A stretch of DNA of 51,730 nt, taken from positions 1 to 51,730 of IMG/VR virus record IMGVR_UViG_3300022074_000065. One strand, 5' to 3'. The first letter of the stretch is position 1. Every line of letters starts with the position of its first letter. This DNA comes from a virus. Positions 7,604 to 49,484 of the stretch are shown piece by piece. The notes under the pieces are model-generated. The model searched no databases, was not told where the DNA came from, and saw only the letters and a program-made list of their open reading frames with translations. The translations under genes were made by a program, and so were the position numbers.

Positions 7604-10600
7604 CTATCTTCTTCTTGTGGGTCTTTCTCTACGTCCTTGTGTAGGTCTATCTCCTCTTTGAAAACCTAAGTTTTTAGATTGTCTTTTCTTTCGTTCTTGT
7701 TCTTTAAAATATTGTGCGTTCTGTTCTGCAGTAGATTTAGTTTTACTACTGCTCTTCTTTTTTGGTGGACCTTCTATCTGATAGTTGGAGAAATTTAAAA
7801 GTCTTAGAATGTCCTCACCCAATTGTCCTTCACCTACCTTTTCGTAGTTATCAATGAATCGTTTTAATGTAGGTGCAGGTAGCGAACTAAGTGTTAGAAT
7901 TTCAGCTATTAATTTTTCATAAGCCTCTTGTTTTTTCTTAGGGTCTTTAGTATTCTCATACCTTTTAGCAAGTTCCGTTATTCTAAAACCTATTTGTAAA
8001 ATACCAACTGTTCTTGCGTTATCACCTGCGTATGGTTTGTTAGTAAAGAAGTCTCCTGCTGCTTGGAATAGTTCGCCTAAAATAAACAATGCGTTTAGGT
8101 TACCAATCACAGCAGCTCTTATTAAATCCTCATCGTCATCATCTCTAAACGGTCTGAGTAATCCCGGTAATCCCATAGATACATATTGAAATACAGTAGG
8201 AGCAACTACATGATACATCAACATAGTTCTTATGTTCTCCGTAATTGTACCCTTACCTGCCTTAGCATCCATGGCTCTTATCTTTCTAAACAAATTACGA
8301 GTACCTTGAATTTCTTTTCTTAAATATTGCTTAGGTGTAGTCAAGAACATATTTAAACCTCTGATTACAGGATTAGATGTTTGGAACACATCTTTATCTT
8401 GTAAGTCCTGAGACTGCTGAGTTCTTTTAGTGTCTCTTTCAAACTTTCTTATTGCTATGTCTATAGCTTCTTGTTCCGTTTTACCATTCTTTAATGCTTG
8501 GTCTTTATAGTATGCGTAGTTTGGCATACCACCCAACATAATTGCAGCTCGGTCACCAAACTTGGTGGTAAACATCATGAAGTTTATATAAAATTGTTTA
8601 GTAGGACTTGGGATAAAGCTCTTCATTGCTCCATCGCTATAAGATTCAATTACTGTAAAGATGCTTTGATTCTTTCTGTCTTGCATGTAAACAGAGTTGT
8701 CTCTAATTTCCTTATATGTTTTTATAACATCAGGAATATTCTTCATGGCATACTTGGTGTAATTAACAAACCCTATATTATCTATATATGTAACCATTGA
8801 GGTTAACTGCTTGATAGTAATCACAGGAGACAATGCAATACGACCAATAATAAATGCTGTATTCATGCCATTTACTATTCTATCTGCTAGGGTGGTTCTC
8901 CCTCCTTTATTAGCAATCTTTTGAATAGCATTATCAATAAGACTCATAACTGTCTTTCCATGAATAGTTGTAATCGCATCTCTAACATACTTGTTGTTAA
9001 ACATCTTATTGATGTCTCGTATGTTTTCAGCGTAGGCTGCAAAGTATTCCATGTCTTTTAGGTAGGAAGCAAGTGCATCGGTACCATTCATTGGAGTAAT
9101 TTTAAGTGCATTGTCTACTCTTGCTTTAGTGGATGCTGCTCCTACTGAAGTGTTGTATACAGATTCATTTGACAATAAATCTAGAACTTCCATCTCTACA
9201 CCTTCTCTATAAATTCTACCTGCATAGAATTGATTCCATGGCATATTAGTTCTATAGATAGCTTTGTATACTTTGTTATAATATTTATATAGAGAAGGGA
9301 AGTATTCATTAACCTGCCAATCAGCAAAAGCTTTTACTTCAGGTTGAAGCTTAGCTTCCATTTCTTTCATGATTCGAGCATAGTCTTTGCCATACATATT
9401 TTCAAATGCCTTTCTATTTGCAGGGTCTTTGTATTGATTATACAAATAATACATTTGATTTTGACTGAGGTACAATTCATTATCTGCTAATGCTTTATCA
9501 AGAGCAGCTTTAGTTACTCCATTTTTATCTTTGTTGTAAGCGTCTTGAGCTTGTTGAACAGCAGAGGGATTTCTGTATATACCTGTAGACTCAATGTTGT
9601 TATGAGATCTAGCTTTGTCTGCCCACTTAGGACCATAGAACTCTTTCATTTTGTCTTTAATTATCTTTTCCTGTTGAAGCATTCGACTTTTGAAGTTTCT
9701 AGAAGATTCATCAACCTTATCGGTAACGTTTTCCTGAAGTCTACCTCCAAACATTTCTCCGGGAAGCGTAGATATTCTATCCATCAAACCATCAAGAGCT
9801 TCTGCACTAGCAAATACTCCAACCTCAATACGCTTAAGTATCTCCTTCATGCCTGTTCTAATTCTTTTATTAACCCTTTCTCTTGTCTTAGCGTTGTCCC
9901 TCTTAAATTGTTCTTCCTCTAATACCTTCTTAGCATCAAGGTCATTCATGTCAACTTTGTTTCCGGTAACTTCCTCGTAAGCTACAGAGGCATCGTCATT
10001 GTATTTAGTATGAGCTTCTTCAAGCTCTTGTTTCAATTCGCCTCTACCTTGCTGAATCATTTCCTCTAAAGCAGAAAAAGCCACATCAAGAGCACCGGTC
10101 TTATTAACATCGGTGTTCTCCATTTTCAAAGAGTTATTTAAATTAATAAGAACTTGTAAGTCTATCAGTCTATCAATGTCACCTTCTTGAAGAATAGTTT
10201 TTTCAGCTATATTATTAAACTCTTTATTTAGTGCTTCGTTCTCAGCGTCTATCTCCTTGGCTGAAGAGTTCTTACTTAGCCTGTCTTTTTTAATCTTATC
10301 TATCCTCTCTTTAATTCTTGAACTAATTTTAGCTGCTTTTACTTTACCTCCTACTCTAGTTTCATACTTACCATTAAGAAGGTTTTCAATTTTCTTTTCA
10401 AGTCTTATGTTATTTTTTACATTAACAAAATCAGTAACCTCAGCAAATATATTTTCTATATTAGATTCATTTGCAGTAGTTACTTTTCTTATTAGTTTCA
10501 TTACTTCACCACGAGTATATATATCTTTAGGTAAAGACTTTCTAATAAAATTTCGTATAGAAGATTTAACTTGTTGTAAATTTTTTGCACCACGCTTTCT

Positions 10601-13600
10601 TTGTTGAACCATTCTTCGAGCTTCCGTAAGTTTATCTTGCATGTTTTCACTTGCTCTAGTTCCAACGCTCTTCTGAAACTCTACTTGAAGCATAGCTTGT
10701 TTGGTCGTAAGAGATTTAGTTCCATCTCCTTCCTTCTTATACTCAGGTTGTTTTTGTAAGAACTCTATAGTTTGATCTGCTATTTGCTGTTCTGTAAGCT
10801 TAACCTTTTTTGTCTTGTTAGAGTTGATAAGCTTTTGTTCAAAAGCTTTTACTCTTTTATATAGTTTTAGTCCTGCTTCTACACCACCTTCTATGTTAGC
10901 AAAGCTCTTAGGAAGTGTCTTAAACAAGTCAACTTCAACTTCCATAATTTTATTAACTAACTTTGCAGGATATTTTTTAACTCTTACTAAGTAATCTTTT
11001 ATTACTTCATCTCTAAAGTTGTATTCTCTACCTTCGTTTACAATGTCAACTACTTCTTTTTGCTCTCTACCTTTTCTAGATGTAACCTCTCTTACTCCTG
11101 AACCATATGGTGCTACCTTTTGACTTGTTTGAGTTCTAGCTGCACCTTCCATTGACTCTCTCATTTCCGCAGGCATTAATTCAAACGCATCAATTTTTGT
11201 ATCAGGAACTCCAATAACTTCACCAAGAATGGTATTGCTATAAGTAGAATGATTTGATCCTTCCTTTGCTCCTGTTGGTTTTAACACCAACATCACATCA
11301 TTTTGTTGAAAATTATTTTCTCTATAGAATCCATCTCTCAAAGAATTAGGATCAATAAAACCATCTAGACTTTTAACTAACTTATGAAACTCTGTGTTTG
11401 GAGTATTAGCTTGTGCATTTAATGCAATTAAAAAGTTTTTTCTTACTGAGCCATCAGCTTCTTTTATCTCTTCCCAACTTTCATATTTATTTAAAACATC
11501 TCTAATGCCTTTTGTAGGATTTGTATTCAAAGCATTTTGTTTAAATGTATTATAATCACCAAGCTTTTGTATATACTTATCGTATACTTTTTTATTAAAC
11601 AAATGACTCTTACTAGGTGATCCACTAATAATAAAAATATAATCAGCGTTAGATATATTTTTTTTAAGTTTTGTTAGAGGAAAACTACTTGCCCAAATCT
11701 CTCCTTCTTTTTGAAAAGCAAAACTTGGACCTGCATCAATATCCATCTCTGCATCTAAGCCTAATTGGTCAGCTACCCAAAACCAAACCTTCTGACCTTT
11801 GGTTGCTATCTCGTCAACCAATGCATCAATGTTTATTTTATTAGCTGAACTTACTAAAGATAATGGATAAGAGTTTTTAAAATTTATTTTTTGTTCTCTT
11901 GATTTTGTTGGCTTTACAATAGTAGTTGGATTACCTACAGGGTTAGTTCCATTGTCTAGTTCTTCAAGTGTGGTAACATCAGTTTCTTCAATCACCTCAC
12001 CTGTTCTAACTCTATCTGCTAAAGTGTTTAAGAAGTTTACTACTTCTACATCTCCTTTATTTACTATGTCCCCTACATCAATACCTAATGCTTTTCCTAC
12101 TTGTTTAACAAATTTTATAATAGAATTTTGTGCAGGTGGCTGTAGTGTTTCATATCTTCCTGCCATTTCACCAAACAATTCTGCTAATCTTTCTTCGTTC
12201 TGAATACTATCTCCTTCTTCTTTATATAACTTAGCAAAGTTGTCAATCTTTTTATATAACAATGAGTTCTTATCTAAAGCTTTCATTGTACTTGTTGTAA
12301 GATTATTGACAGCAGCTGCAATATTCTTTTCTCCTAACCTTTCAAATAAGACTGAATGGAAAACTTCGTGTGCAATTGTACTTTCATTTGCTTTATTCAT
12401 ATCAATATGAATAGTCTTGTTATCAAAGTCATAGAATCCTCTACCTGTTCTGCCTGTGGCTTTGTTAAATTCATCTGAAGATTCATGTAATACTATTTTA
12501 GTATCAAAGTTTTTAGCCAAAGACTTGGCTGCATTTACAGCTTTATTGATAACCTTATTACGAATAGATATTTGTTCTTTATCTAATACAGCTTCAGGTT
12601 TCCCTTTACGATTAAAAAATAAATTTTCTTTTTCAGTTACAGTTTCTTCTGTTCCAAAGAGTTGTTCAATGTCTTGCTTCTCTTCAGTAGTTACAGTTGG
12701 ATCAACAGTAACTTCTTCTCCTACTTGTGTATCCGTTACTCCAAAATCAGGTATACTTTGTTCGGCTTCTTGTGCAGCCTCTTGTTCAGCAGCAGCTTGA
12801 GTTGTAATGTTAGTTAACTCTTCATTAATTTTAGATATTCTTTCTGTTTGATTAACAACTAACTCCGGTGCTTTACCTTCAATAGCAGATTCTAATTGTT
12901 GTTTTTCCATCAACAAGTTTAAAGCGTTACGTTGCTGTTCAATAGTAAAGTCAGCAGGAATCTTAGGAGCTAAACCTTCAATCTTATTAAAAGTTTGAAG
13001 CATTTTTGCAGCATCTTTCTGTGTAAGTTTATCATTAGGGTCAGCTACTCTTTGTTTTAAATTAGTAACAAACATCTTTTTGTACTGCGGATCTTTAATC
13101 ATTCCATTAAACATCTCGAATGCTTCATCAGTAACTAGGTTTAAATCCTGTGGATTAGAACCCATAACAGATATAGCTGTAGGTATAGCCATTATTTTAC
13201 CACCTAGCATTTCTAAATATCCTTGGTACATTACTTCACTTGCGAACTCGCTTATACTCTCAGGAGTATCAAACATTTTTTTATCTACTCCGTCAAAATA
13301 TTTTTTGTAGTTATTGTATAAAGCTTCGATACCAATCTCTCCTATAGATTGTAGTGCTCCTGTTTCAAACTCTGCAGCTCCACCGGCACCAACTGTTAAT
13401 CCAAACTTTACAGCTTTTGCTGTCTTACCGGACAATACTTTGTCTACATCTTTTCTTATAAAATCTGCAAATGTTTTGGAGCCAATTTTAGGGTTAGCAA
13501 CTTTTGCTCTTGAAAACTTTCCTATTGCTCTTGCTGCTAAACTGTTTACTAAACCACCTGAGTTTATAATGTTTCTAAAACCTAAGTCTTCTAAAACTGC

Positions 13601-15652
13601 AGTAGTAATTGCTACAGGAACAGCAACAGCTCTTTGCTCATCTAAATCCACACTATCAAAGTTTGGATTGTTAGCCATCTTATTCATCTGTGCTTCTGTA
13701 GATTGAGACATAAGTCTTATAATTCTTGAAGCCTTGTTAATATTTTTTCTATTCTTTAAATATTTTTCACCTAACTCTTTTCCGTATTTTGCAGTAAGCT
13801 GTGCGGCTTTTTTACCACCTGTTTTTACAACACCAACAAAAGCAGGTATAGAATATGCTACACCATGCATTGCTTTTTGTAGATCGTTACCATTGTTTTT
13901 TATTACTTTTCTGTAAGCAGCTTGAGCATCATCTTCTTGTCCTATATATCTATTAAAGACTGTTCTAACTTTATCACGAAGACCTTCTTCTAAATCCAAG
14001 TAATTTGTTCTACCTGTGTATATATTTTCTGAAAAGGCACCACCCATTGCGGCACTCTTGGCTTTTTGATATCTTGATATTTTTTCAGTAGCAATTATAT
14101 CAGGTCTGCCTTTTACATCAGTTTGTATTTCTGTTTCCTCATACTCTCTTACTGCTTTAGTAGAAACATCTTCAAAAAGACTTTCTGTTAACGAATGTAA
14201 AGTATTTCCATCAGGAGTTTTTATATTCTCCAATACCACTTGCAAATTTTTAGGACTAAAATCAGACAATAAAGATTTTAATTTTTTATCTTCTGTTACA
14301 TCTAGTTTTCCTTTAGCAAGAAGTTCTTTTATTTGTTGAAGTTCTTCAGATTGTTCACCTGCTAATATGCTTATGTCATCTAACTGATAACCGTCTGTGT
14401 TATTTAATACTTGAGCAACTGCATAATCCACATGCTCACCTGCGGCAAACTTACTTTCAGATGCATCAAAGTTCATTAGTTTAGGTGCAATAAAAGCAGC
14501 AATCTCTTCTGCTGCTGAAAGAAAAGCTCCACCTACACCTTCTAATAAACTGTTACCAAGTCTTTCTACAAACTGTCCTGCTCCGCCTTGTTGAGATTGC
14601 ATTAGAGTATATTCACCCACCATCTCATCAAGCTGTGCTCCTTTGGTTGCAAAGTTTTTTTGTCTGTTAACTAATTTTGTTCTAGCAGAATTTAAATTAT
14701 TAGTGGCTTCTACATATTCTTTGTAATATGGATTAGCCTCCAACTCTTCTGCTGTTTTACCTGCAAATGTGTTTTTATATATTTTACCAAGCCTAAGTTT
14801 TTCTGCAGAGAAATTTTTTACGTCTTCAGAAAACTTATCTACCTGAGTATTAAACAAAGTATTTAAAGCTACAAGCTCTTCTTTGTTTTGAATTTTGTTT
14901 AATTTTTTTTGTTCTTTAAGTGTGGCTTCAGTAAAAGATTTTTCAGATTCTTTTTTATTTTTTATTAAAAAATCTCTAAGGTTATTAGCTCTACTTTCAG
15001 CTCCCACTTCAAGCTTGTCCGTAAATGGTAATCCAAATGCATCTAAAGGAATAGATATTTCCTCTCCGTTAGCAGCCTTTACTTTCATCTTATCACCAAT
15101 ACCTGTCTCTTCAAAAGTAAAACCATATTGATTGAACTTGTAATTCATTTCAGGAACGACTTGCTCTTCTTCTCTATCGCCTGTAAGCTCAGGTGTTATA
15201 GAGTTAACACTAGCCATAAAAGAATTATCAGCTAAATCTTTATTAAATTGATCAGATAATATGCTGCCTGCAAAAGGATCGGTTTCGTCTACACTATCTT
15301 CTGTAAGAAATGATTCCGATGAAATACTTTGTGTATCCGATTCTGAAGGTAAAGCCAATTCTTCGGGTACTTTTGGCTCTTCTTGTAAGTCCGGCTCCGA
15401 CTCGAATGGATTTTTTTTTTCAGGGACACCTGAAGATACTACTTCTGTTTCATCAGGACTTGGGGTAGAATCAATTTTATATTTTAAATCAAATTCATTT
15501 TTAGATTTTGTATATAAACCTTGGTCACTAACCACATTATATACTTTATCTCTATAGCTTTGATCTTGGTATTGTTCTTTAAAAGCATCAAATGATTTTG
15601 TATATAATCCTTCAGAAATTAAAACATCATATAACTTTTGTAATTCATTCAT
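7604..15652 (-). CDS. giant internal-virion/polyvalent protein with zinc-protease motif
   Basis: 2682 residues, the largest gene. The N-terminus has two copies of a ~28-residue unit ending in GLYTKS (residues ~7-60), then an acidic low-complexity linker. Near residue 1095 AHEVFHSVLF gives the zincin HExxH, and EERLAELFGE, about 60 residues later, offers a third ligand. A segment with IFIISGSPSKS and RDGFYRENNF resembles domains of phage polyvalent proteins. Long coiled coils follow (~1500-1900), then a hydrophobic C-terminal domain (~2250-2520: IALSPVITIKQLTSMV; VVAPTVFQYVSMGLP) and an Arg/Lys-rich tail. It is last in a trio matching T7 gp14-gp15-gp16 by order and rising size. Likely carried in the capsid and ejected with the DNA; the peptidase may act on the host envelope or on host proteins. 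No RNA-polymerase DxDGD motif was seen. Confidence 0.7.
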   Translation of the reverse strand: MNELQKLYDVLISEGLYTKSFDAFKEQYQDQSYRDKVYNVVSDQGLYTKSKNEFDLKYKIDSTPSPDETEVVSSGVPEKKNPFESEPDLQEEPKVPEELALPSESDTQSISSESFLTEDSVDETDPFAGSILSDQFNKDLADNSFMASVNSITPELTGDREEEQVVPEMNYKFNQYGFTFEETGIGDKMKVKAANGEEISIPLDAFGLPFTDKLEVGAESRANNLRDFLIKNKKESEKSFTEATLKEQKKLNKIQNKEELVALNTLFNTQVDKFSEDVKNFSAEKLRLGKIYKNTFAGKTAEELEANPYYKEYVEATNNLNSARTKLVNRQKNFATKGAQLDEMVGEYTLMQSQQGGAGQFVERLGNSLLEGVGGAFLSAAEEIAAFIAPKLMNFDASESKFAAGEHVDYAVAQVLNNTDGYQLDDISILAGEQSEELQQIKELLAKGKLDVTEDKKLKSLLSDFSPKNLQVVLENIKTPDGNTLHSLTESLFEDVSTKAVREYEETEIQTDVKGRPDIIATEKISRYQKAKSAAMGGAFSENIYTGRTNYLDLEEGLRDKVRTVFNRYIGQEDDAQAAYRKVIKNNGNDLQKAMHGVAYSIPAFVGVVKTGGKKAAQLTAKYGKELGEKYLKNRKNINKASRIIRLMSQSTEAQMNKMANNPNFDSVDLDEQRAVAVPVAITTAVLEDLGFRNIINSGGLVNSLAARAIGKFSRAKVANPKIGSKTFADFIRKDVDKVLSGKTAKAVKFGLTVGAGGAAEFETGALQSIGEIGIEALYNNYKKYFDGVDKKMFDTPESISEFASEVMYQGYLEMLGGKIMAIPTAISVMGSNPQDLNLVTDEAFEMFNGMIKDPQYKKMFVTNLKQRVADPNDKLTQKDAAKMLQTFNKIEGLAPKIPADFTIEQQRNALNLLMEKQQLESAIEGKAPELVVNQTERISKINEELTNITTQAAAEQEAAQEAEQSIPDFGVTDTQVGEEVTVDPTVTTEEKQDIEQLFGTEETVTEKENLFFNRKGKPEAVLDKEQISIRNKVINKAVNAAKSLAKNFDTKIVLHESSDEFNKATGRTGRGFYDFDNKTIHIDMNKANESTIAHEVFHSVLFERLGEKNIAAAVNNLTTSTMKALDKNSLLYKKIDNFAKLYKEEGDSIQNEERLAELFGEMAGRYETLQPPAQNSIIKFVKQVGKALGIDVGDIVNKGDVEVVNFLNTLADRVRTGEVIEETDVTTLEELDNGTNPVGNPTTIVKPTKSREQKINFKNSYPLSLVSSANKINIDALVDEIATKGQKVWFWVADQLGLDAEMDIDAGPSFAFQKEGEIWASSFPLTKLKKNISNADYIFIISGSPSKSHLFNKKVYDKYIQKLGDYNTFKQNALNTNPTKGIRDVLNKYESWEEIKEADGSVRKNFLIALNAQANTPNTEFHKLVKSLDGFIDPNSLRDGFYRENNFQQNDVMLVLKPTGAKEGSNHSTYSNTILGEVIGVPDTKIDAFELMPAEMRESMEGAARTQTSQKVAPYGSGVREVTSRKGREQKEVVDIVNEGREYNFRDEVIKDYLVRVKKYPAKLVNKIMEVEVDLFKTLPKSFANIEGGVEAGLKLYKRVKAFEQKLINSNKTKKVKLTEQQIADQTIEFLQKQPEYKKEGDGTKSLTTKQAMLQVEFQKSVGTRASENMQDKLTEARRMVQQRKRGAKNLQQVKSSIRNFIRKSLPKDIYTRGEVMKLIRKVTTANESNIENIFAEVTDFVNVKNNIRLEKKIENLLNGKYETRVGGKVKAAKISSRIKERIDKIKKDRLSKNSSAKEIDAENEALNKEFNNIAEKTILQEGDIDRLIDLQVLINLNNSLKMENTDVNKTGALDVAFSALEEMIQQGRGELKQELEEAHTKYNDDASVAYEEVTGNKVDMNDLDAKKVLEEEQFKRDNAKTRERVNKRIRTGMKEILKRIEVGVFASAEALDGLMDRISTLPGEMFGGRLQENVTDKVDESSRNFKSRMLQQEKIIKDKMKEFYGPKWADKARSHNNIESTGIYRNPSAVQQAQDAYNKDKNGVTKAALDKALADNELYLSQNQMYYLYNQYKDPANRKAFENMYGKDYARIMKEMEAKLQPEVKAFADWQVNEYFPSLYKYYNKVYKAIYRTNMPWNQFYAGRIYREGVEMEVLDLLSNESVYNTSVGAASTKARVDNALKITPMNGTDALASYLKDMEYFAAYAENIRDINKMFNNKYVRDAITTIHGKTVMSLIDNAIQKIANKGGRTTLADRIVNGMNTAFIIGRIALSPVITIKQLTSMVTYIDNIGFVNYTKYAMKNIPDVIKTYKEIRDNSVYMQDRKNQSIFTVIESYSDGAMKSFIPSPTKQFYINFMMFTTKFGDRAAIMLGGMPNYAYYKDQALKNGKTEQEAIDIAIRKFERDTKRTQQSQDLQDKDVFQTSNPVIRGLNMFLTTPKQYLRKEIQGTRNLFRKIRAMDAKAGKGTITENIRTMLMYHVVAPTVFQYVSMGLPGLLRPFRDDDDEDLIRAAVIGNLNALFILGELFQAAGDFFTNKPYAGDNARTVGILQIGFRITELAKRYENTKDPKKKQEAYEKLIAEILTLSSLPAPTLKRFIDNYEKVGEGQLGEDILRLLNFSNYQIEGPPKKKSSSKTKSTAEQNAQYFKEQERKKRQSKNLGFQRGDRPTQGRRERPTRRR

Positions 15653-15664: not shown

Positions 15665-17581
15665 TTAATCTAAAGGAGCTCCGCCACTACCGCCTTTAGT
15701 ACGTTGTCCTATTTTGTTAGTCAAAAATACTTGTTGTCCTTCTGCTTCTGCTGCTGAAGTATTTCCTTGTAAGAAGCTAAGTAATCTATTCAACTCCCCT
15801 TGTGCTGCTAACTCATCTTCATCGGTATTAACTTCTATTGAAAGATCACCCTTAGAAATTTTAAGAACATCAAATCCGCCCTTTATTTGGTCTATTGTAA
15901 ATCCAAAAGGAGAAATTAAAGGTAGTAACATTTGTTCCGCATCACCTTCACTTTGACCTGTAAATATATCTGCAGTAATTTCTTGATCGTAATATCTATT
16001 AACCTGCTCTTGCGGTGTTTCAGCCTGCGAAATTCCTGCTCCTGTACTTGTTTGTACAATAGATCCTAACTCATATTCTTGACCTACTTTATAAGGAGAT
16101 TTAAGAACATCACCTGCAATAGTTTCTACTCTTCCATCTTTAAATTCTACTTCATAGAAACCATCTCTATCACTTGATCTTACAGCAGATACTACACCTG
16201 TTCTTTTGCCGCCGGCTAAATCAACACTATCTTTAATGTTAGATATACCTGTAAGTAAAACAGCTGATTCAGCAAAATCCTCAAAGCCCATAAGATTACC
16301 TTGAGCATCTACCAATGGAACTTCTTTAGTTATTCCGTTTGTATTTGTCACAAATATAACATCTCCTTTTTTCTGAACTCTAGTAACATCATTAAAGTTA
16401 TCTCTAAAATAAGTTTCAGCTGCTCTAACTGCCGCTTCATCACCATAATAAAGGTCAGATAATTTGTTAAATGTAGCTTGATCATCCTTCTTAGTTTGTT
16501 TAAGTCTTCTAACATCTTGTGGTTCGTAAGGTACTCTAGAAGTTTTAACCTCTACCTTTTTATCTACTGAATCATTAAGTCTTTCTATAATTGCATCCTT
16601 AACTTTAGCTCTTTGTTCATCTGTGAATACAGGTTCACCACCTGCATTGTTAGTTCTGTCTAAATAAATTTCATTAGGCTTTCTTTTACTAGCATCAGGC
16701 TCATATGTAAAAGTATACTGCTCTCCATTAGAAGCTCTTAAGTTTTCGTTTGTTAAAATAGATGTTACATGAAATGGATTTGACATCATACCTTCAGCAG
16801 TATAACCTGCCCATTCAAAGTATTCTTTTAAAACTTTATCATCTCCGGAATACTTACCACCTTGAGATGATGTTTTAAATATTTTGTCAAGACCACCTTG
16901 TGCTGCATACTTTATATCTATTTCATCTATTATTCCTAAATCATCAACAGCTTGTTGTACGTCTTTTCTTACATCATAATAATCGTATTCTCCTACAAGA
17001 TTACCCATAAGCTCAGGTACAGTTGCATAAGAACCGGGATTTGTATCCATTTTACCATCTTTCCATAAACCAATTGAAACCATTCCATTGTTAGGATTAA
17101 TTAAAGCTTTGGTGTTTCTAAGATTATATAGACCTTCTGCCTGCTCCATTTTCCATTGCTCTAGTAATTGAGATCTAGTAGCAGGATCAGCAGAGTTCAT
17201 TCTTTCCATTTTCTTTTTGTAGGCTTCTTGATAAGCTTCTCCTAATTTAAACATTTGCTTATTAGAAGAATTTAAATTAGCTCTAACTACTGCATAATCA
17301 CGAGGTTTTAAAACTCCTTGTTTTAATAATCTGTCTTGAGTTAATAAAACTTGTGAAGCATCAGCTGCATAGTTTGCAATAAACTGATTACCATCTACAT
17401 ATTCTCCTGTAGGTGAATTTTGCAAAGTCTCTACCATCTCTCTTGATGCCCTGTCTAACTCAGCTTTTTGCTGAGCTCTTGACTTTGCTTCTTCTTGTAG
17501 TACTGATGTAAACTGTGAAGCTACTGCAGACCAATCTATTTGATTGGTTGCCTCTCTTCTGACGTATCCAAATTTTGTCAT
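15665..17581 (-). CDS. internal virion protein (gp15-like position)
   Basis: 638 residues, starting 3 bases after the upstream gene ends. The first ~140 residues are helical and rich in Gln/Ala/Lys (VLQEEAKSRAQQKAELDRAS); the middle is mixed; near residues 480-520 RTGVVSAVRSSDRDGFYEVEF and KDGRVETI suggest a small beta barrel; the end is Gly/Ser-rich. No enzyme motif. Its place between a short Ala/Gln-rich protein and a giant protein parallels T7 internal virion protein gp15. This is an assignment by order and size, not by sequence match. Confidence 0.55.
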   Translation of the reverse strand: MTKFGYVRREATNQIDWSAVASQFTSVLQEEAKSRAQQKAELDRASREMVETLQNSPTGEYVDGNQFIANYAADASQVLLTQDRLLKQGVLKPRDYAVVRANLNSSNKQMFKLGEAYQEAYKKKMERMNSADPATRSQLLEQWKMEQAEGLYNLRNTKALINPNNGMVSIGLWKDGKMDTNPGSYATVPELMGNLVGEYDYYDVRKDVQQAVDDLGIIDEIDIKYAAQGGLDKIFKTSSQGGKYSGDDKVLKEYFEWAGYTAEGMMSNPFHVTSILTNENLRASNGEQYTFTYEPDASKRKPNEIYLDRTNNAGGEPVFTDEQRAKVKDAIIERLNDSVDKKVEVKTSRVPYEPQDVRRLKQTKKDDQATFNKLSDLYYGDEAAVRAAETYFRDNFNDVTRVQKKGDVIFVTNTNGITKEVPLVDAQGNLMGFEDFAESAVLLTGISNIKDSVDLAGGKRTGVVSAVRSSDRDGFYEVEFKDGRVETIAGDVLKSPYKVGQEYELGSIVQTSTGAGISQAETPQEQVNRYYDQEITADIFTGQSEGDAEQMLLPLISPFGFTIDQIKGGFDVLKISKGDLSIEVNTDEDELAAQGELNRLLSFLQGNTSAAEAEGQQVFLTNKIGQRTKGGSGGAPLD

Positions 17582-17584: not shown

Positions 17585-18517
17585 TTAATTATTAATTCCT
17601 ACGGTAATATTATTTAACTCCTGAAGTTCCATTGCAGTAATAGTACCTGCTGCTTGTTTAGCTTGAAGCTCTTGTATTCTTACTTGCTGTGGTGTTTGTG
17701 TTGATGAAAACGCATTAAGACCTGCTGTAGCTTGTGCCATATTAGCTTGAAACGCTTCGTTACCAAAAATTAACATTTGTTGTTGAGGTGTTAAAGCTCT
17801 TCTAAATTTTCTAAACTCAGCTTTACTTCCTGTAGCTAAGGCTGAAGGGTCAAAGTTTGTAAATCCTTCACCGGCTACACCCTGACCTTCAATGTTTCCA
17901 ATAGTTGAAAACTCTTCAGGTGTAAATTGAGTCTGTCCTAAAGCTGCCATTTGTGCATCAGTGTTTTGACGATATAAAGGAATCATTTGAATACCTTGTT
18001 GGACTGTGCTTATAGCTCCTTGTATACCTTGAGCAGTTTGTGCAGCTGCTCTTTGCTCTGCATCTGCTGCTGCTTGTTGAGCTCCTTGTATTTCTCCTAA
18101 ATCTAATTGAACATTTAAGTCTCTTAATCTTGCGTCCTCTTCTGCTACAGCTTTTTCTATAGCTTGAAGTTCTTGACCCATCTGTGTTCTTACTTGACCT
18201 TGAGCTTGAGTCTGAGCTTGTTGTAATCTACCTGCTGTTGCTGCGACACCTCTTTGACTTCCCTCCTGAGCTGCTGCTAAAGCTGTTGCTCCTTGTTGAA
18301 GCAATGCTTCTCTTTGAAGTTCATATGGTTCTTTCTTTATAGAAAGTTGTTCCATATAATTTATATCTAATCTTTTTCTTGCCTGACGCATCATCATTTC
18401 AGCTTTTGATTCTGCATCTCTTTTCTCCCGTCTTGATCTACCCGCTTGAGCAAAAGAAAAACCGGTTCCTATAGCTGATAATCCTAATCCTGCAATTGCA
18501 AATCCGAGTCCTGCCAT
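17585..18517 (-). CDS. internal virion protein (gp14-like), Ala/Gln-rich with hydrophobic N-terminus
   Basis: 310 residues. The N-terminal MAGLGFAIAGLGLSAIGTGF is a Gly/Ala-rich hydrophobic helix like those of phage ejection proteins that enter the outer membrane. Residues ~30-190 form a long Ala/Gln/Arg coiled coil (LAAAQEGSQRGVAATAGRLQ; GAQQAAADAEQRAAAQTA). The tail repeats ELQAKQAAGTITAMELQEL. The composition and place, first of three growing proteins, match T7 gp14-type proteins that form the outer end of the ejection channel. It overlaps the cupin gene by 34 bases. Confidence 0.6.
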   Translation of the reverse strand: MAGLGFAIAGLGLSAIGTGFSFAQAGRSRREKRDAESKAEMMMRQARKRLDINYMEQLSIKKEPYELQREALLQQGATALAAAQEGSQRGVAATAGRLQQAQTQAQGQVRTQMGQELQAIEKAVAEEDARLRDLNVQLDLGEIQGAQQAAADAEQRAAAQTAQGIQGAISTVQQGIQMIPLYRQNTDAQMAALGQTQFTPEEFSTIGNIEGQGVAGEGFTNFDPSALATGSKAEFRKFRRALTPQQQMLIFGNEAFQANMAQATAGLNAFSSTQTPQQVRIQELQAKQAAGTITAMELQELNNITVGINN

Positions 18518-42187: not shown

Positions 42188-42679
42188 TTAAGGGGTTACT
42201 ACTATTCTTCTAATTATAAGGTATCCTGAGAAAGACGTTTCACTAGTAATACCTGATCCGTCTGCAGCAATTCTAGCTTCTCTCACATCAACCGTAGATG
42301 ATTGAAGTTGAGCTCCAAGAATTTGTAAATCACTTCCTGAAATAACAGAAGGACTACTACAAGTTCCCCAAGCATATATATCATTATTTAGATCAACTAA
42401 AGTTCCACCCGTTACGTCAGCATGAAGAGTTTGAGCATTAGTTGAGCTCCAAGTAAAAGTTAATCCTGTATCGTTAGATAATTCTTCAACTCTAAAAGTA
42501 GTCAAACTTCTATTTAGATAAAATACAGCCTCTTTATAAGCAGCACCACCAACAGTATCAATTATATCCTGCATAGTAAAGGCTTCTCTCTTAGCATTTA
42601 GCTGAGCAGACCCCTTATTGTCTGTGTCTACAGTAGAAGCTACTGTATGAAATTTTTGTCCGTTAGGTATTGTTGCCAT
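42188..42679 (-). CDS. short anchor-module tail protein (fibre array member 4)
   Basis: 163 residues. Residues 1-45 (MATIPNGQKFHTVASTVDTD then NKGSAQLNAKREAF, TMQDIIDTVGG) are nearly identical to the first 45 residues of the large fibres at 43015 and 44991. The rest is a compact beta domain (RVEELSNDTGLTFTWSSTNA; DVREARIAADGSGITSETSF) instead of the beta-helix. It is thus the shared anchor joined to another head. Likely a short tail spike or a plug for an unused fibre site. Confidence 0.6.
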   Translation of the reverse strand: MATIPNGQKFHTVASTVDTDNKGSAQLNAKREAFTMQDIIDTVGGAAYKEAVFYLNRSLTTFRVEELSNDTGLTFTWSSTNAQTLHADVTGGTLVDLNNDIYAWGTCSSPSVISGSDLQILGAQLQSSTVDVREARIAADGSGITSETSFSGYLIIRRIVVTP

Positions 42680-42689
42680 AGTTTATATT

Positions 42690-43013
42690 TTAAAATTTAA
42701 TATGCCTCATAGGTGTGTTCTCTGTAGAAAAAGATAAAACACCTTTTTTCTTTACACCATCTACTGTAACATGCATTTGCATACCTGTGGGTGTTACCTT
42801 AGGACCAATTAGTTTTAGATATAATTGGTCAAGCATTTCTACATCTTCAGCAGAAGGTTCTCCATAAAATTTTTTATTTATTTCTTTCATAGCTTCTGCT
42901 AACTCAGGAGTACTCCTAGGGTCATTATATATTGCTTTTTCTTCTTCAGTAGGTTGATAGTTTATTAATTCTATCCAATCTGATTCTATATTTTTTTTAG
43001 TAAAATTTTTCAT
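42690..43013 (-). CDS. fibre partner protein, W..YxPTxxE family (copy 3)
   Basis: 107 residues. SDWIELINYQPTEEEKAIYN aligns with DWKVKIPYKPTEQEQEI and SDWKLMFNYQPTEEENKLL in the proteins at 44633 and 46484. A helical middle (ELAEAMKEINKKFYGEPSAE) is followed by a variable beta end. It starts one base after the fibre at 43015 stops. Genes directly after phage fibres often encode tail-fibre assembly chaperones, so a dedicated chaperone or capping partner is proposed. No known family is recognised. Confidence 0.6.
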   Translation of the reverse strand: MKNFTKKNIESDWIELINYQPTEEEKAIYNDPRSTPELAEAMKEINKKFYGEPSAEDVEMLDQLYLKLIGPKVTPTGMQMHVTVDGVKKKGVLSFSTENTPMRHIKF

Positions 43014-43014
43014 G

Positions 43015-44613
43015 TTAACCTAAATTTATTATTGTGTTTGTATTATCTAAACAGTTTCTAACTTTTGCGTTTCCTGTAACTGCAAATGTTCCACCCGTAG
43101 CTCTACAGTTATATGCTACAGAATCAGTACCAAATGATCCAAAGGTTAATGCGATACAGTTATTAAGGGAAGCACTACCTGAAGATGGAATATTAAAACC
43201 TGAGAAATAAGTAGTAGTTTGACCTCCGAAATTTATAAATGTACTATGACAAACACAGAAATCGTATTTTGGTATTTCAGTAGTTGAACAACTAGTAGGT
43301 GAAAAAGAATCCGGTCCACCGGCACAGTTATTATAATAAGCAGAAACATTAGTTGAATTCGTTCCAAAAGAACTTTCTCCTGCTACACAACCAAAATATT
43401 GACCGCCTTCATCATCAGACTGAACACCAAACATATTCTCTGCTAAGTATCCCGGAGTAACAATACAATCTACAAAAGTTCCATAATTGTATATTGAGTT
43501 ATATGCAAAACTATCTTCAAAACCTCTATCTTGATTTTGACCTAACTCCATGGCAAAAGCAGTTGAATCAGGTGTGGCACCTATTATAAGTGAAGAAATA
43601 CCTATTGCACCGTTTCTTCCAAAACATCTTTTTTGTATTTTACAATCTTGATAAATTCCTGTAAGAACAGTTCCGGAGTATCCACCCCAACCATTTTGAC
43701 CTCCTGTACAATTTATAAAAGTACCGCCTAAGAATCCTGCAGCTGCACCTTCAATGCTATAAGCGTAGTAATCTAAAGACACTATGTTTTTATAAGTAAT
43801 CCAATTTAAATTACTTCCTATTTGAAACTCGCTACCTACCCCTCTTTGATTTTCTTGTCGTAGACCTTGTATTGTTATACCAACGCTTGGATTATCTGCT
43901 CCTGATCTTATTATAACATTAGCTCCTTGTATTTCTACATCAGCGATACCTGAAACAGAAGTAACATTCACATAATCATCTACAACAAAATCCTTACCTC
44001 CTAAGTCGTAACGACCTGATGCTATATAAAGAGTTGCAGGAATTACATCTACAAATTGAAAAGGAAAATTATTTGATCCGTCTGTAGGTAACCCACTAGT
44101 AATTTCAGTACCATCTGCTTCATAAAGTCTCATACTATAAACATATGTATCATAAAGCTCTCCACCGGGGTCAAGAACATAACCATCAACAACAAATGTA
44201 ATAGGTCTTACAGCTCCACCGGCTATATCTGTTTCATAAACCCAAGTTTGACCAAGTGTCGTAGGAGCGTAAGGCTTAGTTGAACTTGTGTATAATTGTA
44301 TCTGCCAACCATACTGAGCAGACCAACTATTATAATCGTAAGTTTGGTAGCTATATAATAGAATAGAGGTGTTGTCAACTATTTTTGTGACTGCCTCATC
44401 ATAAGCTTTTAATAATGTTGCTCCATTTTCCAAAGGGGTACCCCCTGAAGTTGCTAAAACTGAATGAGCTCCGTTTAAACCTCCAACTGATTCAGCAATA
44501 TCAGCCATAGTAAATGCTTGACGTTGTGCATTTAATTGAGCAGAGCCTTTATTCTCTGTATCTACAGCACCTGCGACTGTATGAAATTTTTGTGTGTTTG
44601 GGATTAATGCCAT
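43015..44613 (-). CDS. tail fibre with shared anchor module and beta-helix body (member 3)
   Basis: 532 residues. The anchor (1-45) starts MALIPNTQKFHTVAGAVDTE. A linker helix (ENGATLLKAYDEAVTKIVD) and a beta domain (~80-200) follow, then YVNVTSVSGIADVEIQGANV, the strand that opens the helix body in all three large members. Residues ~255-500 repeat a turn with F-I-N-C or Y-N-C (GGTFINCTGGQNGWGGYSG; GTFVDCIVTPGYLAENMFG), as in right-handed beta-helices. The end GNAKVRNCLDNTNTIINLG matches member 2. Probable receptor-binding spike. It may have depolymerase activity, but no catalytic set can be named. Confidence 0.7.
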   Translation of the reverse strand: MALIPNTQKFHTVAGAVDTENKGSAQLNAQRQAFTMADIAESVGGLNGAHSVLATSGGTPLENGATLLKAYDEAVTKIVDNTSILLYSYQTYDYNSWSAQYGWQIQLYTSSTKPYAPTTLGQTWVYETDIAGGAVRPITFVVDGYVLDPGGELYDTYVYSMRLYEADGTEITSGLPTDGSNNFPFQFVDVIPATLYIASGRYDLGGKDFVVDDYVNVTSVSGIADVEIQGANVIIRSGADNPSVGITIQGLRQENQRGVGSEFQIGSNLNWITYKNIVSLDYYAYSIEGAAAGFLGGTFINCTGGQNGWGGYSGTVLTGIYQDCKIQKRCFGRNGAIGISSLIIGATPDSTAFAMELGQNQDRGFEDSFAYNSIYNYGTFVDCIVTPGYLAENMFGVQSDDEGGQYFGCVAGESSFGTNSTNVSAYYNNCAGGPDSFSPTSCSTTEIPKYDFCVCHSTFINFGGQTTTYFSGFNIPSSGSASLNNCIALTFGSFGTDSVAYNCRATGGTFAVTGNAKVRNCLDNTNTIINLG

Positions 44614-44620
44614 GGTTTAT
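44576..44620. repeat. 45-bp exact repeat, copy A (5' end of fibre 3)
   Basis: Identical by eye to 46438-46482. It covers the first 13 codons of the fibre gene, its ATG and 7 bases upstream. A 19-base part also occurs at the start of member 4. Identity at DNA level beyond what the protein needs points to recent duplication or recombination between fibre genes. Confidence 0.85.
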
Positions 44621-44632
44621 ATTTTAAAGTTT

Positions 44633-44983
44633 TTAAAATCTTTTTTGAATTAAGTTGCTGCCTATATAATAATTAAAAATACCTGAATACTCTATACCTC
44701 TATCGCTTGTCACTTCTCTCATAACTTCAATAGCAGATAGATTGTAATAAGACAAATCCATTCCTTTTTTTAGCCTTACTTCTAGTGCATTTAACCAAGC
44801 AAGATCATCTTCCGTTGGATCTTCAATACTTTTACTAACTACATTTTTTATAGTGCTTTTCTTTAACTCTAAATCTTCTTGAGTATCAGGTACGCTGTTT
44901 ATAATTTCCTGTTCCTGTTCTGTTGGTTTATATGGAATTTTAACTTTCCAATCTCTTTTGTTTAACTTGTTAAATTTTTTCAT
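44633..44983 (-). CDS. fibre partner protein, W..YxPTxxE family (copy 2)
   Basis: 116 residues. RDWKVKIPYKPTEQEQEIIN carries the family motif. Helices with PTEDDLAWLNALEVRLKKG parallel PSAEDVEMLDQLYLKLIG in copy 3. The last 45 residues are a different beta-like end. It starts 7 bases after the fibre at 44991 ends. The conserved front and variable back suggest that the front docks to a common part of the fibre while the back matches its own fibre. Confidence 0.6.
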   Translation of the reverse strand: MKKFNKLNKRDWKVKIPYKPTEQEQEIINSVPDTQEDLELKKSTIKNVVSKSIEDPTEDDLAWLNALEVRLKKGMDLSYYNLSAIEVMREVTSDRGIEYSGIFNYYIGSNLIQKRF

Positions 44984-44990
44984 GTTACTT

Positions 44991-46475
44991 TTAGTTTAAA
45001 TTTATTGTATTGTAACTTCCATCAATAGAGTTTCTTATTATACCCGAGCCTGATGTAGCAAAGCTTCCGCCTGTTACACAATTAATGACAACACCATATG
45101 CTGTTGATCCAAAGCCATTACCCTCAGATATGCAGCCTATATAAGTTCCTCTAGATGATTGATTTGCAGTAGGTGAATACCCAAAATTATCATTACCTGC
45201 AGACGTACAGTAATAATATTTAGACTGATCTGTATCAGCATCAACTGAACTAGTGTTATTAGATCCAAAATTACTACCTGTGGTTCCACCTCCGTTAGAT
45301 ACGAAACCATGACAGTTAATAAAAGTACCACTGTTTTTGTCACTACCTGAACCAAAATTATTCTGTCCATAAGCACGACAGTTTTCAAAATAAGCAATAA
45401 CATCATCAGAATTGTGTCCAAAAGCATTATCTCCTGCAGTACAGTTAATAAACGTTCCTCCACATTGTGTAGTAAAAGACCCAAAACCACCATTTGCAGG
45501 AAAATCGCCTCCATCTATCGAGCAACCCTCAAAATAACCGGATGAAATTGAACCCGAACCGCCTGCAAAACCGTTACTTCCTATACAATTTATAAATGTT
45601 CCGGAAGCATTTTTACCGACACCTTGACCGAAGCTACCGCCATGGCAGTCAATAAAAGTACTTGACTGATTAGCTCCTCCTGCTTCAGAAGAAAAGGAAC
45701 TAAAATTCGTAGATTTTATGTTTTTAAAAGTTACAAGACTCAAACCTTCTTCAATATATAAATAATTATCATCACCTATAAGTAAATTAGCATAAAAAAT
45801 ATTATCAAAATTAGCCTCAGGTTTTATTATGACATTTGCTCCATAAATATGTACATCTCTTTCGCCTGTTAATGAAGTTATAGAAACCAAGTCTTCTACT
45901 ACAAGATTAGAGGGTATTTCGTAATCTCCCGGACCAATCATTAAATAAGAAAGTTTTGTTGTACCACCATAAACCGGGATTTGAGTGAAATCAAAAACTA
46001 GGTTGTCTTGGGGATTTCCGGAAGTATCTGTAATATATACAGCTAAAGCTCCACTTGAATTAACCATTTCTATTCTCCAAACAAGTGTTTGAGCCGGGAC
46101 AGTTCCATAGCTAACTGTGTAATTTACGTTTATAGCAACATCTGCAGGATTTACACCTACCGTATCAAAGATATAATACTGACCATTCCCTCTATCTACC
46201 TGTCTACCTGCTACATAATTAGTAATACCTCTAGTATCTATAGATTTTGATGCAGCGTCTGTATATGCTGCTAGCAACGCTACTCCGTTTTCTTGAGGTG
46301 TCCCATCAGCTTTTACATAAACTGAAACGCTGCTATCTACTCCGCCTACAGTATCAGCAATGTCTTGCATAGTGAATGCTTCTCGCTTAGCATTTAACTG
46401 AGCAGATCCTTTGTTTTCTGTGTCTACAGTAGAAGCTACTGTATGAAATTTTTGTGTGTTTGGGATTAATGCCAT
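44991..46475 (-). CDS. tail fibre with shared anchor module and beta-helix body (member 2)
   Basis: 494 residues. The anchor (1-45) begins MALIPNTQKFHTVASTVDTE. A middle beta domain includes LMIGPGDYEIPSNLVVEDLV and then VHIYGANVIIKPEANF. Residues ~225-450 are at least eight turns of ~25 residues with x-F-I-N-C or Y-x-x-C and F-G corners (SGTFINCIGSNGFAGGSGS; AYFENCRAYGQNNFGSGS), a clear parallel beta-helix. The tail GIIRNSIDGSYNTINLN matches member 3. Likely a trimeric receptor-binding spike. The gene is followed by its own partner gene. Confidence 0.7.
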   Translation of the reverse strand: MALIPNTQKFHTVASTVDTENKGSAQLNAKREAFTMQDIADTVGGVDSSVSVYVKADGTPQENGVALLAAYTDAASKSIDTRGITNYVAGRQVDRGNGQYYIFDTVGVNPADVAINVNYTVSYGTVPAQTLVWRIEMVNSSGALAVYITDTSGNPQDNLVFDFTQIPVYGGTTKLSYLMIGPGDYEIPSNLVVEDLVSITSLTGERDVHIYGANVIIKPEANFDNIFYANLLIGDDNYLYIEEGLSLVTFKNIKSTNFSSFSSEAGGANQSSTFIDCHGGSFGQGVGKNASGTFINCIGSNGFAGGSGSISSGYFEGCSIDGGDFPANGGFGSFTTQCGGTFINCTAGDNAFGHNSDDVIAYFENCRAYGQNNFGSGSDKNSGTFINCHGFVSNGGGTTGSNFGSNNTSSVDADTDQSKYYYCTSAGNDNFGYSPTANQSSRGTYIGCISEGNGFGSTAYGVVINCVTGGSFATSGSGIIRNSIDGSYNTINLN

Positions 46476-46482
46476 GGTTTAT
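46438..46482. repeat. 45-bp exact repeat, copy B (5' end of fibre 2)
   Basis: Second copy of the stretch at 44576-44620; the two are 1862 bases apart in the same orientation. Unequal recombination between them would delete exactly one fibre-partner pair (fibre 2 body plus partner 2), leaving a reading frame intact. Confidence 0.85.
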
Positions 46483-46483
46483 T

Positions 46484-46897
46484 TTATAATGTTATCTTTT
46501 TATATTCTGTTTCGTCTTTTTGTTTGTATAAAATTTCTGAATGAACTTCAGAACTAGTAGCAATTATTGAACCTTCAACATCTAATTCAGATGAATCAAT
46601 TCCATATAATTCCCACAAGATATTTAAATAAGTATTTACAACATTTAAATCTTTTTCTTCAAGTTCCAATCTGTATTTTAATTGAAGCTCTTTAAGTTTT
46701 AAACTTTCTTCTTGTGAAGGATTACCATTAATAAATAGTAATTTATTTTCTTCTTCAGTAGGTTGATAGTTGAACATTAACTTCCAATCTGAATTTATTT
46801 TTTCTTTAACAAAAACTTTTTTTTCTCCATCAGAAATGTGACTTAAAATTTCGCTTACATTTATTTCGCTATTTTTTCTTTTAAATAAGTTTTCCAT
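46484..46897 (-). CDS. fibre partner protein, W..YxPTxxE family (copy 1)
   Basis: 137 residues, with ~28 extra N-terminal residues compared with the other copies. SDWKLMFNYQPTEEENKLLF carries the motif; a helical middle (EESLKLKELQLKYRLELEEK, DLNVVNTYLNILWELYG) and a divergent C-terminus (VEGSIIATSSEVHSEILY) follow. It lies 20 bases after the fibre at 46918, within the same run. Same proposed role as the other copies. Confidence 0.58.
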   Translation of the reverse strand: MENLFKRKNSEINVSEILSHISDGEKKVFVKEKINSDWKLMFNYQPTEEENKLLFINGNPSQEESLKLKELQLKYRLELEEKDLNVVNTYLNILWELYGIDSSELDVEGSIIATSSEVHSEILYKQKDETEYKKITL

Positions 46898-46917
46898 TTT
46901 TTTATATTATAAAATTA

Positions 46918-48498
46918 TTAAGGTAATGTTACTGATGTCCAAGTAAATTTTGCCAAGCAATTTGTTAATTTTCCTGTTCCATTAACTGACCATTGTGATG
47001 CTACTGTATTAAAAACTAGTCCTCCATCTGTAACAGCGGTAACACCACCGCTTACGTCTAATATACAATTATAAAGTTCTTTATCTTCAATAGCTCCTGA
47101 TGCATTTATAAAGCTTTGGTCTTGCCCTTTACAATAATAATATTTAGGAGATGCACCTTGAGTACCTCCTGTAAAACATTGATTTGTTCCGTTACAGTAT
47201 TCATATCTTGGACATTCATTATTATAACAATTCGTTCCAAATGAAGAAGTACCTGCGTTACACGCATAGAATACAGCACTTGTTAAAATAGCATCTGCTG
47301 AATTAGCAAAACAAAATACATATCCTTTACAAAAATAGTACTCTGCTCTTACGCTTAAAGCTTGTCTACCAAATGAATATTGGTTTGCTTCACAGTTATA
47401 ATATTTTCCCCTTTCAATATTAATTTGATGACCAAAACTATAATCAAATCCTTTACATCTATAATGTCTAGCATAATTATTATTTCCGACTCCTTGACCA
47501 AAAGAGTAAAAACCACCTTCACAATCCATAATTTCATGAGTAAGCTGTCCTGTATTCCCCGGTTTAATAGAAAACGCATTCCATCCGTAAGATTTGCAAT
47601 TTGAAACAACAAGTCTTGTATTGTCGGCTCCTATAAATATAGAGAATAAACCGGTGTCTGTATAATCTTCATTACCGGGATTTGATGTTATTACTGTACT
47701 TAATCCATTTATATAAGTATTAAATTCATTGTTTACATTTCCTGCTTGAATATCTACGTTTGCACCTTGTATGATTACGTCAGATTGACCTGTTGATGAA
47801 GTTACATTTACATATTCTCCATCTAAAATCCAATCTTGCTCTATCTCATAGATTCCGGGTTCAATTATTAAATTTGCAGCTACAGGTGACAAAATAGGAA
47901 TAAGTCCTGCTGCAAAACCTCCTGTAGTATTGTTGGGAGGAAATGGAGCCGGAGAGCCTGATCCACCTGTGCCTACAAGCTCAGTTCCATCTTCCTTATA
48001 ATATCTTACTGACCAACCATCAGCAGATGGTGCAGGAATACCATTTCCACCGGCTTCTACTACAGCTGTAAGTACTATCATTTCATTAACACCTCCGTTA
48101 TCTATAATTGCAGTACCTTTATATGTATATCCTCCTTCAGGAATATAAGGCAACGGAAAGAATGGCAAAAATTTTCCTATACTCCAAACCCCGTATGGTA
48201 TACCTTGGTCAGTTCCTACCCATGTCGTTGTAGCAAGAACATATTGCGTTGACGATAGTATAGAGGATACTTTAGTTTTAGCTTCTTCATAACCTTTTAA
48301 TAAAGCTACTCCGTTTTCTTTTGGTGTACCGTCAGATGCAACATAAACATTGTTAGTTCCTGATAGCCCTGCGGTATCTATAATATCTTGCATGGTAAAA
48401 GATTTTCTATCTGCGTTAGCTAATCTTGAACCTTTATTAGAAGTATCCACATCACCTGATTGTGTGTGGAACTGTTGATTAAGTGGTATTAATGCCAT
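46918..48498 (-). CDS. tail fibre with diverged anchor module and beta-helix body (member 1)
   Basis: 526 residues. The anchor MALIPLNQQFHTQSGDVDTS, then NKGSRLANADRKSFTMQDII, is the most diverged of the large members. A Pro/Gly-rich segment (~85-200) is followed by LIIEPGIYEIEQDWILDGEY and DVIIQGANVDIQAGNV, as in members 2 and 3. The body (~270-470) repeats Y-x-C turns (NYARHYRCKGFDYSFGHQIN; RGKYYNCEANQYSFGRQ). The end is GTGKLTNCLAKFTWTSVTLP. First fibre after the TATCTTTG box at 48710. Confidence 0.7.
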   Translation of the reverse strand: MALIPLNQQFHTQSGDVDTSNKGSRLANADRKSFTMQDIIDTAGLSGTNNVYVASDGTPKENGVALLKGYEEAKTKVSSILSSTQYVLATTTWVGTDQGIPYGVWSIGKFLPFFPLPYIPEGGYTYKGTAIIDNGGVNEMIVLTAVVEAGGNGIPAPSADGWSVRYYKEDGTELVGTGGSGSPAPFPPNNTTGGFAAGLIPILSPVAANLIIEPGIYEIEQDWILDGEYVNVTSSTGQSDVIIQGANVDIQAGNVNNEFNTYINGLSTVITSNPGNEDYTDTGLFSIFIGADNTRLVVSNCKSYGWNAFSIKPGNTGQLTHEIMDCEGGFYSFGQGVGNNNYARHYRCKGFDYSFGHQINIERGKYYNCEANQYSFGRQALSVRAEYYFCKGYVFCFANSADAILTSAVFYACNAGTSSFGTNCYNNECPRYEYCNGTNQCFTGGTQGASPKYYYCKGQDQSFINASGAIEDKELYNCILDVSGGVTAVTDGGLVFNTVASQWSVNGTGKLTNCLAKFTWTSVTLP

Positions 48499-48506
48499 AT
48501 TACTTT

Positions 48507-48695
48507 TTATTTACTGCAGCCAAAGTTTTTTGCAAAATTTGCCATCTTGACCACACTTGGGTTGTATTTACTTTTTCTTTTCATTACAGCACTTGCTGCA
48601 CTACAGACAGATTTGTTAGGCATGTTTTTCTTTGCCCAAGCTGTAAATTTACCTGCGTTGGATTTTTTAATTTTTATGTCTGCCTTCTTTGCCAT
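48507..48695 (-). CDS. 62-residue basic protein, unknown
   Basis: MAKKADIKIKKSNAGKFTAW then AKKNMPNKSVCSAASAVMKR, ending MANFAKNFGCSK: Lys-rich, helical, with two cysteines. The pattern K-I-K...GKFT-A-K, then S-x-V-K-x-A-N-FAKN, is familiar from small proteins of many marine phages and is often found near structural genes; the function is unknown to me. First gene after the box at 48710, 8 bases before fibre 1. Probably a virion-packed DNA-associated protein. Confidence 0.6.
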   Translation of the reverse strand: MAKKADIKIKKSNAGKFTAWAKKNMPNKSVCSAASAVMKRKSKYNPSVVKMANFAKNFGCSK

Positions 48696-48709
48696 ATTAT
48701 TTTATCATA

Positions 48710-48717
48710 CAAAGATA
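48710..48717 (-). promoter_or_regulatory. TATCTTTG box before the fibre array
   Basis: TATCTTTG followed by TATGATAAAA on the minus strand, in the 22-base gap after the 96-residue gene. The predicted start near 48706 gives a leader of about 11 bases before the ATG at 48695. Confidence 0.62.
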
Positions 48718-49008
48718 CTAATATTTTCCTTGTCTATTTTTCGGAGATGACTTTGTGCTTCCTCCTTTTCCTGCCCATAATTTTTTACATGCCCAATAAC
48801 GAGCTGTAAGTTTAGATTTAGCAGTCCCACACTTGTGTCTAGCTCGGAACGATTTCCTAGCTGCTGCACTATAGTTATGACCATAACCTTTAGCACCAAA
48901 GTGAATTAGTTTTTCTTTTCCACCTTCACAAGCCTTAACCATTTTTTTCTTACCGGCTCTGTCTGAAGCAACAACTCTGTTGCATTTCATTTTACTTTTA
49001 TCTGCCAT
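48718..49008 (-). CDS. Cys/Lys-rich 96-residue protein of a widespread phage type
   Basis: MKCNRVVASDRAGKKKMVKA, CEGGKEKLIHFGAKGYGHNY and ARKSFRARHKCGTAKSKLTA followed by RYWACKKLW form one conserved pattern that I know from marine phages and some giant viruses, without a known function. Four cysteines and many basic residues suggest a zinc-bound nucleic-acid binder. The C-terminal GSTKSSPKNRQGKY is disordered. It lies in the cluster of small basic genes and ends one base before the fibre-unit promoter box. Confidence 0.65.
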   Translation of the reverse strand: MADKSKMKCNRVVASDRAGKKKMVKACEGGKEKLIHFGAKGYGHNYSAAARKSFRARHKCGTAKSKLTARYWACKKLWAGKGGSTKSSPKNRQGKY

Positions 49009-49013
49009 TTTTA

Positions 49014-49481: not shown

Positions 49482-49484
49482 AGT

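Follow-up and report, generated by a model that had tools for sequence, protein, structure and literature searches.

The minus strand of the window analyzed here, the whole 51,730-base virus record IMGVR_UViG_3300022074_000065, encodes a protein of 2682 residues that contains a HExxH sequence, which raises the question of what a peptidase housed in so large a phage protein would cut. A preliminary description of the locus had depicted a virion protein of polyvalent architecture and suggested its ejection into the host, where the peptidase could process the envelope, the ejection channel, or host defence proteins. The ORF was present as described, and the features recognized within and around it are listed in Table 1.

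Table 1. Coordinates of the giant protein, its predicted parts, and other genes in the window.
Feature	Residues	Position in the window	Strand	Basis or remark
Whole ORF, 2682 aa, ~302 kDa	1-2682	7604..15652	minus	ATG at 15652, stop at 7604
638-aa neighbour, probable second internal protein		15665..17581	minus	phrog_35506 (function unknown); elemo and N4 show a like gene order
310-aa neighbour, probable first internal protein		17585..18517	minus	phrog_13764 virion structural protein
N-part of the chassis	1-1000	12653..15652	minus	conserved in orthologs
Two N-terminal G[LF][YF]TKS repeats	15-50	15503..15610	minus	translation; same pair in close relatives
Predicted zincin domain	1005-1228	11969..12640	minus	alignment A4, model, fold matches
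HExxH	1095-1099	12356..12370	minus	H1095, E1096, H1099 invariant in 34 homologs
Glu-Glu, probable third zinc ligand (either Glu)	1153-1154	12191..12196	minus	invariant; helix after the HExxH helix
Joint 1, SREQK, candidate cleavage site	1251-1255	11888..11902	minus	follows a stretch of pLDDT <50 (model residues 234-251)
Cassette X1	1256-1527	11072..11887	minus	close orthologs carry a different sequence here
Joint 2, GREQK, candidate cleavage site	1528-1532	11057..11071	minus	joint-motif pattern and counts
C-part of the chassis, predicted all-helical	1533-2640	7733..11056	minus	alignment A6; phage polyvalent-protein matches
Portion of the C-part weakly like T7-type core proteins	1950-2328	8669..9805	minus	Z 4.3-4.9, below the reliable level
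Basic tail	2631-2682	7607..7762	minus	52 terminal residues with 19 K/R and 5 D/E
Five proteins with a shared N-terminus		46918-48498, 44991-46475, 43015-44613, 42188-42679, 50622-51086	minus
Small related proteins in three gaps between the shared-N-terminus genes		46484-46897, 44633-44983, 42690-43013	minus

Gene neighbourhood and the zincin domain

No Pfam model matched the 2682-aa protein, and a PHROG scan likewise gave no usable match. Its neighbours in the window match virion structural, portal, and terminase families, which places the gene in a late virion setting. It is the last of a series of genes encoding 310, 638, and 2682 residues, the other two lying upstream, and this order, together with the relatives, supported its earlier assignment as the last of three internal or ejection proteins. 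Since its relatives are annotated as structural proteins, the protein is presumably located in the virion, and gene order and the same annotations indicate that it probably enters the bacterium with the DNA by ejection. The polyvalent architecture was borne out by relatives that join the zincin with unrelated enzymatic domains. The protein is a polyvalent protein of a Bacteroidetes podovirus, a known kind.

The N-terminal repeats (EGLYTKS ending at residue 20 and QGLYTKS ending at residue 50) and the basic tail noted beforehand were both found, and the repeats recur in close relatives. Two further parts of the preliminary description held only partly. The C-terminal half is predicted to be all-helical (pLDDT 82, pTM 0.73; model of residues 1535-2645), which makes "long coiled coils" only roughly right. 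Likewise, the stretches behind the supposed hydrophobic domain are present but mild (best Kyte-Doolittle 19-mer, 1.53 at residue 2510).

Elsewhere in the window (minus strand, 42188-51086), an N-terminus resembling MALIPNTQKFHTVA..VDTENKGSAQLNA.R.AFTM.DI is common to five proteins, and small related proteins occupy three gaps between their genes. This region is probably an array of tail-fibre genes with their partners.

The HExxH sits in AHEVFHSVLF, and the Glu-Glu pair that probably provides the third zinc ligand lies in NEERLAELFGE. H1082, H1095, E1096, H1099, E1153, and E1154 were invariant in an alignment of 34 diverse rows. Because the HExxH and the Glu-Glu pair are invariant across such diverse homologs, the HExxH is not a chance occurrence. 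In a model of residues 1001-1535 (mean pLDDT 85, confident over most of the zincin), one helix and a sheet of three strands precede the HExxH helix, and a Glu-bearing helix comes later; the same order of elements is described for the zincins of polyvalent proteins (PMC5512222). The concern that the HExxH might lie in a coiled coil was thereby dispelled, since the structure prediction gives a zincin topology.

Among solved structures, the closest in fold were the catalytic domain of LF (Foldseek E, 6e-3; Z, 8.3; 164 residues aligned) and the PPEP peptidases (Z, 8.0). A profile of the domain found no convincing sequence relative in the PDB; when weak Pfam matches were tallied across the family, those to metallopeptidases were the most frequent. 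Based on the invariant residues, the predicted topology, and the LF and PPEP matches, the domain is confidently predicted to be a zincin metallopeptidase and would bind zinc, in agreement with the zinc-peptidase centre first recognized from the HExxH and the downstream EERLAELFGE. The HExxH was kept in nearly every full-length relative, with L093 as an exception. This 2756-aa ORF retains the N-part and has neither an HExxH nor a detected C-part; it is possibly a zincin-free variant that could be useful as a natural control.

A constant chassis with an exchangeable cassette bay

Relatives, both close and distant, were collected by IMG/VR scans with the whole protein, the C-part, the N-part, and the zincin as queries. 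The architecture consists of a constant N-part, the zincin, an exchangeable cassette bay, and a constant helical C-part of ~1100 aa. The bay between the zincin and the C-part differs among orthologs whose N and C parts are 53-76% identical, and its contents in relatives include ART-PolyVal, Kinase-PolyVal, GNAT, methyltransferase, LPD23, DUF3293, or a second metallopeptidase. Across the family, the zincin is combined with the first five of these, and in the window protein it is combined with X1. An acetyltransferase, considered as the identity of a cassette in L005, was not confirmed. A second HExxH was observed within the bay of L009, L159, L047, L178, and L189, that of L009 being SprT-like and similar to DUF6782; therefore, a peptidase can itself be cargo.

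X1 recurs at 45-81% identity in 17 proteins that diverge in their other parts. It is unclassified, as no library family matched it, and its profile retrieved no convincing sequence relative from the PDB. Its predicted fold weakly resembles PUA-like folds (YTHDF2: Z, 6.8; rmsd, 3.5; 125 residues aligned), and no match to YTH or ASCH (PUA-like) domains was found at the sequence level. Several of its segments are strongly conserved (WFW.ADQLG, DAGPSF, SGSP, HSTY) in a manner resembling an enzyme active site. A search of genome contigs gave 59 pattern matches, none of which passed tblastn, and X1 was seen only in viral contigs.

A peptide motif at the cassette joints

The joints on both sides of X1 read SREQK and GREQK, and similar peptides surround the unrelated cassettes of relatives; these sequences served as the discovery set from which R[EQ]Q[KR] was fixed as the pattern. 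Most cassette joints bear R-[E/Q]-Q-[K/R]. The following counts cover sequences sharing ancestry and are hence not independent. Among the 44 discovery proteins, the 22,653 aa of bay contained 43 copies of the motif, where composition predicts 0.8, and the 104,013 aa outside the bay contained six, an enrichment of ~30-fold. The enrichment persisted among 41 deduplicated proteins that had been held out: those with a detected C-part gave 34 copies in 11,951 aa of bay compared with one in 26,326 aa upstream and five in 27,305 aa downstream. Across 169,650 aa of other ORFs from these loci (minimum length, 400 aa), there were three matches, all near-copies of one site. Known effectors are bracketed by the motif, including a kinase (L189), a DUF3293 (L159), methyltransferases (L146 and L131), and a GNAT (L028).

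Of 322 residues shared between motif copies of the same gene, 118 are encoded by different codons (37%, compared with 45-60% for random pairs in the same genes), and the 18-base flanks of the copies are 35% identical. Since the codons differ between copies and the flanks are unrelated, it is the peptide, not the DNA, that is kept, and DNA-level repeats were rejected as the cause of the motif. On a rival explanation, the motif would not be cut and would instead serve within flexible linkers as a hinge or as a binding tag, assisting the unfolding, packing, or tail passage of the cassettes or easing their exchange. The predicted disordered stretch preceding joint 1 would suit such a function, as would the description of N4 gp50 as globular units connected through flexible linkers, in a study that also brings up passage through the narrow tail tube (PMC12633501). 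However, the codon differences and unrelated flanks speak against a DNA recombination site, proteins with the other zincin class would have to make the same passage without the motif, and we consider this explanation quite improbable.

The motif also varies. Lineages that lack the strict form often carry a replacement at more than one joint: at four joints in L008 and two in L054, [KR][FH]QLD takes its place, and other substitutes are EKNQK in L047 and L053, VRKQK in L173, and RKNKEQK, found twice in L056. The joints before and after X1 are alike within a protein, with a mean best 5-mer score of 18.1 compared with 14.4 between proteins (permutation p, 5e-5; n = 27, some close relatives included). 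In N4 gp50, the zincin (C1) domain (L196:17902-18657) starts with VGREHK directly behind the polymerase linker, which recalls GREQK; this is a single instance, and the likeness is possibly due to chance.

A FastTree phylogeny was built from 96 C-parts, and the 700 residues before each C-part were scored for the motif. The motif was present in 46 of the 74 proteins with the query type of zincin and in 0 of the 22 with the other type, whose HExxH lies ~130-200 residues before the C-part. Of the 28 proteins of the query class that lack the strict motif in this stretch, several, such as L006 and L085, showed no clear substitute. L026, L034, and L042 form a group with a C-part from within a motif-rich clade together with the other zincin, and no motif. 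As there are only 3-5 independent class switches and significance is not reached after phylogeny, the tie between the motif and the zincin class is suggestive.

This tie is relevant to which enzyme would act at the joints. Trypsin-like enzymes are suited by a motif ending in K/R, and another protease, of host or phage origin, might cut there while the zincin does something else. We hold this to be very unlikely, given that the presence of the motif seems to follow the type of zincin from phage to phage and that no second protease was seen among those structural genes of the window that were looked at.

LF and PPEP, the nearest folds, are enzymes that cut other proteins. By analogy, the zincin might itself be an effector whose targets after ejection are proteins of the host (defence proteins, regulators, or the envelope), the motif being no more than a linker, and such a role is allowed by the earlier survey of polyvalent proteins (PMC5512222). 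It would leave one shared joint motif, its in-step variation within a protein, and its class-linked absence unexplained. Moreover, the zincin persists from phage to phage as the cassettes are exchanged and so resembles a tool more than cargo, and an effector role is regarded as unlikely.

Proposed self-processing and known ejection systems

Our preferred explanation is that the zincin acts on the protein in which it resides. The envelope, the ejection channel, and host defence proteins, which had been put forward as substrates, found no support, and the cassettes and the class-linked joint motif point instead to the protein itself. Zincins are described as the most common domain of polyvalent proteins, for which a processing task has already been proposed without a defined substrate (PMC5512222). 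In the proposed mechanism, the constant N-part with the zincin and the constant helical C-part would form the carrier in a packaged and then ejected protein of a Bacteroidetes-infecting podovirus, and different phages would fill the bay with different effector cassettes, X1 in this case. The two joints SREQK and GREQK would serve as recognition sites of the resident zincin, which would cut them either while still inside the virion or immediately following ejection. The expected products are an acidic N-zincin part of ~139 kDa (pI 4.9), a free X1 effector of ~31 kDa (pI 7.0), and a basic C-part of ~132 kDa (pI 9.5).

Cleavage at the joints is what we infer from the sequences, and we consider it reasonably probable that the protein is an ejected polyvalent carrier whose zincin cleaves SREQK and GREQK and thereby frees the effectors of the bay. 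The case is evenly balanced for the broader proposal that the whole family may be a self-cutting delivery chassis, in which a portable tag changes with the resident zincin, brackets each cassette, and allows the effectors to be released separately. Among characterized proteins, P1 DdrB is processed before packaging, and N4 vRNAP, which also has a zincin, is packaged unprocessed (PMC5512222); the latter counts against self-processing.

In the literature searched, no report of a candidate cleavage site for polyvalent-protein zincins was found, and the joint motif, its maintenance at the peptide level, and its suggested tie to the zincin class have, as far as searched, not been described previously. 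If the proposed mechanism is true, the tag would be, as far as we found, the first candidate cleavage-site consensus for these zincins. The motif names candidate cut sites, so that the standing processing proposal becomes directly testable. Phages could then swap effectors freely, each being released in the host as a separate protein, and the motif would show where effectors begin and end in many phage proteins that lack annotation, exposing new domains like X1.

Compared with BFVD, the model of the C-part matched many polyvalent proteins of phages, and the C-part profile found no relative in the PDB. Among solved structures, three T7-type core or ejectosome chains matched the model at Z 4.3-4.9, below the reliable level, and no sequence match to T7-type core proteins was found; since the fold similarity is too weak, homology is not claimed. 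The three-gene order of the window resembles the order 14-15-16 of T7, and by this order the 2682-aa protein, like T7 gp16, is the last and largest of three internal proteins. However, it is much larger than gp16 and the podovirus core proteins and has the zincin and the cassettes.

N4 gp50 is similarly a giant ejected protein that follows a ~640-aa and a small virion protein, in the order gp52-gp51-gp50, and it likewise has an HExxH domain followed by a helical C-terminal domain of ~1100 aa. The cassettes of the window protein, in contrast, lie between the zincin and the C-part. The zincins of the two proteins have a weak sequence relation, N4 C2 and the C-part showed no sequence relation (hhalign probability, 0.1), and no RNA polymerase family matched the 2682-aa protein in the Pfam scan.

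Among phages of Bacteroidetes, the Flavobacterium elemo phages encode a 3694-aa "structural protein" as the giant last gene of the structural block, with a zincin 30% identical to that of the window protein but with other cassettes. Tenacibaculum phage Gundel_1 encodes a 2482-aa "structural protein" whose C-part is 21-22% identical, but it carries the other zincin type beside the C-part and no joint motif; the giant last structural genes of Cellulophaga phages are related to that of Gundel_1. The closest known kind is the polyvalent protein with a zincin-like MPTase domain, which is likewise a giant late-gene protein combining a zincin with unrelated enzymatic domains (PMC5512222). The window protein differs from these proteins in its constant chassis, its defined bay, a joint motif that appears to be linked to the zincin class, and the unclassified cassette X1.
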